A stretch of 38,342 bases of DNA, taken from positions 1 through 38,342 of the forward strand of contig JAOAUD010000161.1 in assembly GCA_030157755.1 (NCBI GenBank). The letters are read 5' to 3'. The notes under the pieces were generated by a model. That model had not been told where the DNA came from. It did no database searches and was given only the letters and a program-made list of their open reading frames with translations. The position numbers and the translations under genes are program-made. This DNA comes from Candidatus Nanopelagicales bacterium. GTDB lineage: Bacteria; Actinomycetota; Actinomycetes; S36-B12; UBA10799. Positions 29,249-29,930 of this stretch are shown here, piece after piece (the stretch's first letter is position 1; each line of letters begins with the position of its first letter).

Positions 29249-29413
29249 ATGTGCAGTCCAGCAACGTGTCGTGAGTGTGGAAAGGCCAGCTACACCGGGT
29301 GCGGTTCCCACGTGGAACAGGTTCTTGGTGGTGTACCCGCAGATCAGCGATGCTCCTGTGACTCGTCGAGCAGCCAGAGTCCTCAGAGTTACGCCACCTG
29401 GTTACCCCGCTGA
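29249..29413 (+). CDS. Cys-rich miniprotein A (54 residues)
   Basis: This is a small conserved-looking protein of unknown function. It begins MCSPATCRECGKASYTGCG and continues with SHVEQVLGGVPADQRCSC, followed by a Ser/Gln-rich tail. It has six cysteines (2, 7, 10, 18, 35, 37) and His21, a pattern suited to binding zinc or another metal, or to carrying persulfide. The same pattern at identical positions occurs in miniprotein B (29766-29930); 24 of the first 39 residues are identical. GGAGG at 29238-29242, 6 nt before the ATG, is an excellent ribosome site. The stop abuts that of the convergent regulator gene. Expression should follow the operator at 29185-29202. I recall similar short proteins, annotated only as hypothetical, from other actinobacteria. 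Confidence 0.82.
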   Translation: MCSPATCRECGKASYTGCGSHVEQVLGGVPADQRCSCDSSSSQSPQSYATWLPR

Positions 29414-29671
29414 CTACGCGAGCGACATGAACAGCTTTTCGAGATCTTCTTGAGTCGTGACGTTTTCGGTGTCTGCCAAACACTGGCGCAGCCCGCTGGC
29501 AATGATCTGGAAGCCAGCGCGATCGACAGCCTTGGATGCCGCTGCAAGTTGCGTCACGATCTCTTTGCAGTCGCGGCCTGACTCAAGCATGCGAATAACG
29601 CCAGCGATCTGACCCTCTGCTCGTCGCAGGCGGCGAACTGCCGCTGCGGTTGCGTCTGGTTCAAGCTCCAT
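29414..29671 (-). CDS. CsoR-superfamily repressor, CstR-like (persulfide-sensing type)
   Basis: This 85-residue all-helical regulator of the CsoR/RcnR/CstR family has the [20 protein letters not shown] opening and Cys35 in [10 protein letters not shown]. The second conserved cysteine is Cys64 in LRQCL, 29 residues later as usual. Copper-sensing CsoR needs a histidine four residues before that second cysteine; here the position is Gly60 and the protein contains no histidine at all. Two cysteines without histidine is the CstR pattern, which senses persulfide or polysulfide. That agrees with the CoADR-rhodanese target gene. AGGAG 6 nt before the ATG supports the start. The gene lies 94 bp after miniprotein B and is probably co-transcribed; a weak private promoter (TTGACT-N17-CATATC) is also possible. 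Confidence 0.88.
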
Positions 29672-29765
29672 GGTGTCTCCTGATCGTGTGCTGCTGCGTG
29701 CCGGAGGTTACTGCGTGGGATATGCGAAACGGCTTGGTCGTAGTCAAGTCGTACGCAAGCGGGGC

Positions 29766-29930
29766 CTACTTCTTCGAACCCCAGCCGAACATCGTGCGCT
29801 TGGCTGGTTTACCTGAATCGCACTTACATCGCTCGCGTGATGGAACTCCCCGCATCACGTCGTTGACGTGTTGCCCGCAGCCCGCGTAGGTCGTATTTCC
29901 GCAAGTTCTGCAGGTGGCTGGTCGGCACAT
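29766..29930 (-). CDS. Cys-rich miniprotein B (54 residues)
   Basis: This is the paralogue of miniprotein A, the same length, on the other strand. It begins MCRPATCRTCGNTTYAGCG, continues QHVNDVMRGVPSRERCKC, and has a basic tail ending MFGWGSKK. Cysteines 2, 7, 10, 18, 35 and 37 and His21 are all kept, while the tails differ (acidic/Ser-rich in A, Lys-rich in B). This selective conservation over an uninterrupted frame shows it is a real protein. GGGAG 8 nt before the ATG is a fair ribosome site. It lies directly downstream of the second CsoR/CstR-type operator and upstream of the regulator gene, so it is likely the first gene of the regulator's operon. Function unknown; metal or persulfide binding is a guess from the cysteines. 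Confidence 0.8.
   Translation of the reverse strand: MCRPATCRTCGNTTYAGCGQHVNDVMRGVPSRERCKCDSGKPAKRTMFGWGSKK

Follow-up and report, generated by a model that had tools for sequence, protein, structure and literature searches.

In Streptomyces coelicolor, a four-gene sulfane-sulfur circuit has been published that consists of ScCsoR, ScPDO, a rhodanese and a sulfite transporter (PMC7533328). ScCsoR has the operator motif ATACCn6GGTAT and leaves the DNA when its Cys37 is persulfidated by sulfane sulfur (PMC7533328). A comparable arrangement exists in S. aureus, where CstR, a CsoR-like dithiol repressor, acts over the sulfurtransferase genes of the cst operon; the direct targets named in the available part of that report, cstA, cstB and sqr, are enzymes, and a small Cys/His protein is not described among them there (PMC5480029). 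Nor is such a protein listed in the four-gene circuit of S. coelicolor (PMC7533328).

The locus described here is part of a window of 38,342 nucleotides (the whole stretch of DNA analysed) from Candidatus Nanopelagicales. It contains the following features:

27134..28816, minus strand: CoADR-Rhd, a flavoprotein resembling CoA-disulfide reductase, with a fused rhodanese domain (PF07992, PF02852, PF00581)
28871..29113, minus strand: YgaP-like transmembrane protein (DUF2892) that contains two Cys (the longer frame matches PF11127 at E 9.8e-20; translated from ATG)
29186..29201, no strand: perfect palindromic operator ATACCCCCCGGGGTAT, 47 nt before the ATG of P0001; 0 expected by chance
29249..29413, plus strand: P0001, small Cys/His protein of 54 aa with a Ser-rich tail (translation; orthologue in G003/L034; family matches)
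29414..29671, minus strand: CstR-type CsoR-family repressor of 85 aa, C-x-C class (PF02583, E 4.9e-23)
29766..29930, minus strand: P0002, small Cys/His protein of 54 aa with a basic tail ending in TMFGWGSKK (translation; codon changes relative to G003; homologues in 49/60 relatives)
29981..29996, no strand: second perfect operator, 50 nt before the ATG of P0002; 0 expected by chance

The operator motif and the two-cysteine type of repressor are the same as in the S. coelicolor circuit, and rhodanese and TauE-type neighbours are also found at loci of the small-protein family, but in the window CoADR-Rhd and the YgaP-like protein take the place of the S. coelicolor PDO and TauE (PMC7533328). In CoADR-Rhd, the motifs SFANCGLPY and CAVGQR are present, while the match to TIGR03385 is below its cut-off. 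The YgaP-like gene is divergent from P0001. Thus, a dithiol repressor lacking the copper His, operators and a sulfurtransferase gene (CoADR-Rhd), all features of a persulfide regulon, are found together. Operators, CstR-type repressor and adjoining CoADR-rhodanese gene are the best clues to the function of the small genes, and all three were absent from the earlier note on this DNA. Two genes upstream of P0002 and on the same strand, a sulfatase-family protein of 805 residues is encoded (PF00884, 30527-32944, minus strand), which has no known link to persulfide genes.

P0001 and P0002 lie on opposite strands, 352 bases apart, with the CsoR-family gene (29414-29671) in between. Translation confirmed what had been noticed before, two 54-residue frames with the same Cys/His positions (C2, C7, C10, C18, H21, C35 and C37) and identity at 24 of 39 head residues; both proteins begin with Met-Cys. 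A selected function had been proposed, and the substitution pattern in relatives, looked at as a check, is of the coding type. Between P0002 and its orthologue in G003 (record UBA10799, L034), 23 codon differences are synonymous and one is non-synonymous, with 24 of 25 base changes in third positions. For the head of P0001 and its orthologue in the same record, eight synonymous and four non-synonymous codon changes were counted. The codon changes reveal selection on the protein, and both frames are real genes. The likeness between P0001 and P0002 is not due to chance, because family matches are present in 49 of 60 related genomes and at no fewer than 577 loci of the GTDB genome set; homologues with the same cysteine pattern, which had been the second check, are therefore abundant.

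Both operators in the window are exact copies of ATACCC-N4-GGGTAT, one for each small gene, none being expected by chance in the window, and both fit the published ScCsoR motif (PMC7533328). The copy at 29186-29201 also falls in the spacer of a promoter predicted on the minus strand and reading towards the genes for the YgaP-like transmembrane protein and CoADR-Rhd. Of 186 matched family stretches, 121 contain an operator in which at least 11 of 12 positions agree, usually located 30-75 nt upstream of the start codon; in a first set of stretches it was present in 83 of 124, compared to 0.5% of shuffled upstream regions. About a third of the members have no recognisable operator. Some of these are found just downstream of a repressor gene and may belong to the repressor operon. 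Among 67 exact operators in relatives, 55 adjoin a gene for a rhodanese, CoADR, thioredoxin, CsoR, YgaP or the small protein, the share of the latter being an underestimate because these operators were fetched mainly for being outside small-protein loci. The operator is also commoner in genomes containing the family (28 of 45 versus 60 of 251; Fisher p 1.5e-6, without correction for kinship). Elsewhere in the genome of the window there is a third exact operator (G000:C102:15409-15424), which adjoins no recognised sulfur gene. In seven genomes (G136, G147, G158, G188, G287, G306 and G312) the operator overlaps the ATG of the small gene exactly (GGGTATG, with AT shared), and in an eighth, G353 (L228), it does so with one mismatch; the overlap in the seven follows from coordinates, and for three of them the matched family stretches display it as well. 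This arrangement suggests leaderless transcripts that would be blocked by a repressor sitting on the start codon.

The neighbourhood of the family was determined by profile searches, because clustering of neighbours by greedy open reading frames yielded many antisense artefacts in the high-GC DNA. A gene for CsoR, rhodanese, CoADR or TauE was detected within 2.5 kb at 49 of 60 loci with full flanks, and a rhodanese is near the small gene in about half of the loci.

MymT of M. tuberculosis is a small Cys-rich actinobacterial protein controlled by a CsoR-family repressor, RicR, that has a similar operator and responds to copper. In length and cysteine content the window proteins are like MymT, and a metallothionein-like store for copper or zinc would be a further reading of the family. 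The operators of RicR and of copper CsoRs do resemble those in the window (PMC7533328), and because operators of similar shape are used by these copper repressors, the class of the regulator matters. The window repressor, whose gene follows P0002 on the minus strand, has Cys35, Cys64 and a Gly at the position of the copper His. All 57 CsoR-family genes near family members specify the C-x-C class without the copper His, in contrast to the copper-responsive MymT system. In 24 related genomes, none of 14 sampled copper-type C-H-C CsoRs has a small gene within about 1.5 kb, compared to six of 15 C-x-C CsoRs (Fisher p 0.017); most of the 14 are beside CopZ-like metal-binding motifs. The genome of the window has its own copper-type CsoR (C-H-C) on another contig (G000:C106:7344-7586), adjoined by a CopZ-like gene. 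With operators adjoining sulfur genes and copper CsoRs unlinked to the family in related genomes, a metallothionein-like store is the least probable of the readings considered, and a copper metallothionein was rejected as first choice since no linked regulator carries the copper His. Persulfide sensing requires the C-x-C arrangement but is not proved by it. Taken with operators and linkage, regulation of the small genes by a CstR-type persulfide repressor is well supported at the level of sequence.

The small proteins constitute a large, widespread and uncharacterised actinobacterial family. Apart from the GTDB loci, 45 genomes out of 296 sampled throughout the phylum contain it, as do 69 plasmid records, for which all listed genera are Actinomycetota. 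In these records the gene either lacks an annotation or is called a hypothetical protein (the gene table is incomplete). Of the GTDB loci, of which there are at least 577, the best 80 are listed; one of these is labelled Acidobacteria, and restriction to Actinomycetota is not claimed. This locus (L101) groups with Microbacterium sequences and is possibly misbinned. Two IMG/VR contigs of 58 and 278 kb (L114 and L115, 5001-5150) encode a divergent homologue of 49 aa with all ligands in the CxGH form; on the larger (L115), which is a phage contig of very large size, there is also a gene for a GroEL-type chaperonin of phage kind. MT835623.1, a record of 24 kb that has no annotation and is listed as a human faecal bacteriophage, carries another homologue at 19139-19282. 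A further IMG/VR match (L116), antisense inside a predicted tail-fibre gene, was taken as chance. Searches of Pfam, NCBIfam and PHROG with P0001, P0002 and two other members gave no profile match. Open-access papers contained no match to family peptide strings, and no small protein in a CstR regulon was found in the open-access literature.

An alignment of 167 sequences bore out the conserved Cys/His pattern proposed earlier: C2, C7, C10, C18, H21 and C35 are near-invariant, although among the loci from the genome scan C10 and C18 owe part of their invariance to the peptide pattern by which these loci were picked and which covers part of the motif. As seventh ligand, 94 sequences have C37 and 72 have H38 in CxGH. 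A start codon directly precedes Cys2 in 166 of the 167 distinct members, and a Shine-Dalgarno-like string was found in 149, compared to 80 after shuffling.

Two subtypes could be distinguished, a long one with a C-terminal motif and a short, tail-less one of about 38 residues. The motif, FFxRLFGR-like, is present in 116 of 142 long members but in only three of 142 shuffled tails. Conservation had been thought to be confined to the Cys-rich head, which does not hold: the tail of P0002 is conserved in relatives. The tails of P0001 and P0002 do differ from each other, as described, but they are not free to drift. A duplication within the locus had also been assumed. On a tree of 38 columns, in which few forks are resolved, P0002 falls among genes from its own family-level clade and P0001 is placed elsewhere, among genes of other lineages; a recent local duplication is thus not supported, as far as 38 columns, which resolve little, can tell. 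Pairs of long and short paralogues in one locus occur across the order and in Micrococcales. Because of this distribution and of the separation in the tree, the pair in the window is probably old. The hydrophobic-basic C-terminal motif and the frequent pairing of the 38-residue form with a long one would also fit a role in tuning the response: as a regulator or adaptor, the small protein would resemble a zinc finger and use its C-terminal motif to attach to the repressor, to a rhodanese or to the membrane. No fusion to another domain was seen in the 167 sequences, all of which are 70 aa or shorter, and this role appears improbable, if slightly less so than a metallothionein-like store.

The conserved ligands and the exchange between C37 and H38, typical of metal sites, argue for a metal site in the small proteins. 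The metal is probably zinc but could be copper or iron. The AlphaFold (AF2) model contains two strands and a helix with moderate scores only (pLDDT 73.5, pTM 0.41). The predicted hairpin-plus-helix would fit a minimal zinc finger. A fold search against solved structures returned no match (best Foldseek hit E 4.9, none with VIA-align).

A specific cysteine, for example C35 or an exposed N-terminal one, could instead take the persulfide sulfur of a rhodanese and pass it to an acceptor, any zinc being structural only. Such a dedicated sulfur carrier would be in line with the rhodaneses near about half of the loci and with the Met-Cys start of nearly all members. The initiator Met is usually removed before Cys, and if it is removed here, the mature protein would begin with cysteine. 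Sulfur carriers, among them homologues of TusA and DsrE, are moreover known from CstR-type regulons elsewhere (PMC9918477). However, conservation extends jointly to all seven ligand positions, with no free cysteine standing out as the invariant one, and the exchange between C37 and H38 is more in keeping with a metal site than with a CxC redox pair. A carrier of this kind is therefore considered rather unlikely, though somewhat less so than an adaptor.

The hint at metal and persulfide chemistry in the earlier note is strengthened by ligand conservation, CstR-type operators and linkage. Because metal ligands are combined with persulfide control and co-regulated thioredoxin and rhodanese genes, a zinc-loaded acceptor or buffer for sulfane sulfur appears most likely. 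That P0001 and P0002 belong to a CstR-type regulon and act as a zinc-loaded thiol buffer, cleared by co-regulated enzymes, is proposed with middling confidence. A rise in sulfane sulfur would lead to modification of both cysteines in the repressor encoded at 29414-29671 and to its release from both operators, so that P0001 and P0002 would be made along with the repressor itself, CoADR-rhodanese and the YgaP-like membrane protein. The small protein would probably consist of a hairpin and a helix that form a minimal metal-binding fold (C7-x2-C10 ... C18-x2-H21), in which C2, C35 and C37 or H38 would complete the metal site or add to it. Its zinc-loaded cysteines would most likely take up sulfane sulfur, may release zinc, and would be cleared by rhodanese, CoADR-rhodanese and thioredoxin.

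Chemistry like that proposed here is known from growth inhibitory factor/metallothionein-3 (MT-3), a small Cys-rich zinc protein of the mouse, in which sulfane sulfur is bound as a zinc ligand and which is reset by thioredoxin (PMC12618007). It serves as a precedent for the chemistry, not for homology; no sequence relationship is claimed, and the bacterial proteins, of about 54 aa, have seven ligand positions including His. In S. aureus, sulfide and zinc are linked as well, since sulfide brings about a zinc-limitation response there (PMC5480029). More tentatively, the family could be a bacterial zinc-persulfide sponge, widespread in Actinomycetota and induced by persulfide, in which zinc-bound cysteines would serve as a store of sulfane sulfur and exchange this sulfur for zinc; if this is true, it was overlooked owing to the small size of its members.

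Accounts of the bacterial persulfide response have so far dealt mainly with enzymes. The presence of a widespread small protein under a persulfide operator suggests a non-enzymatic arm, which possibly links sulfane sulfur to zinc. The gene is often left uncalled by annotation. Culturable genera, among them Arthrobacter, Microbacterium and Corynebacterium, offer a candidate that can be tested directly, and the family is probably an overlooked part of sulfur-stress defence.
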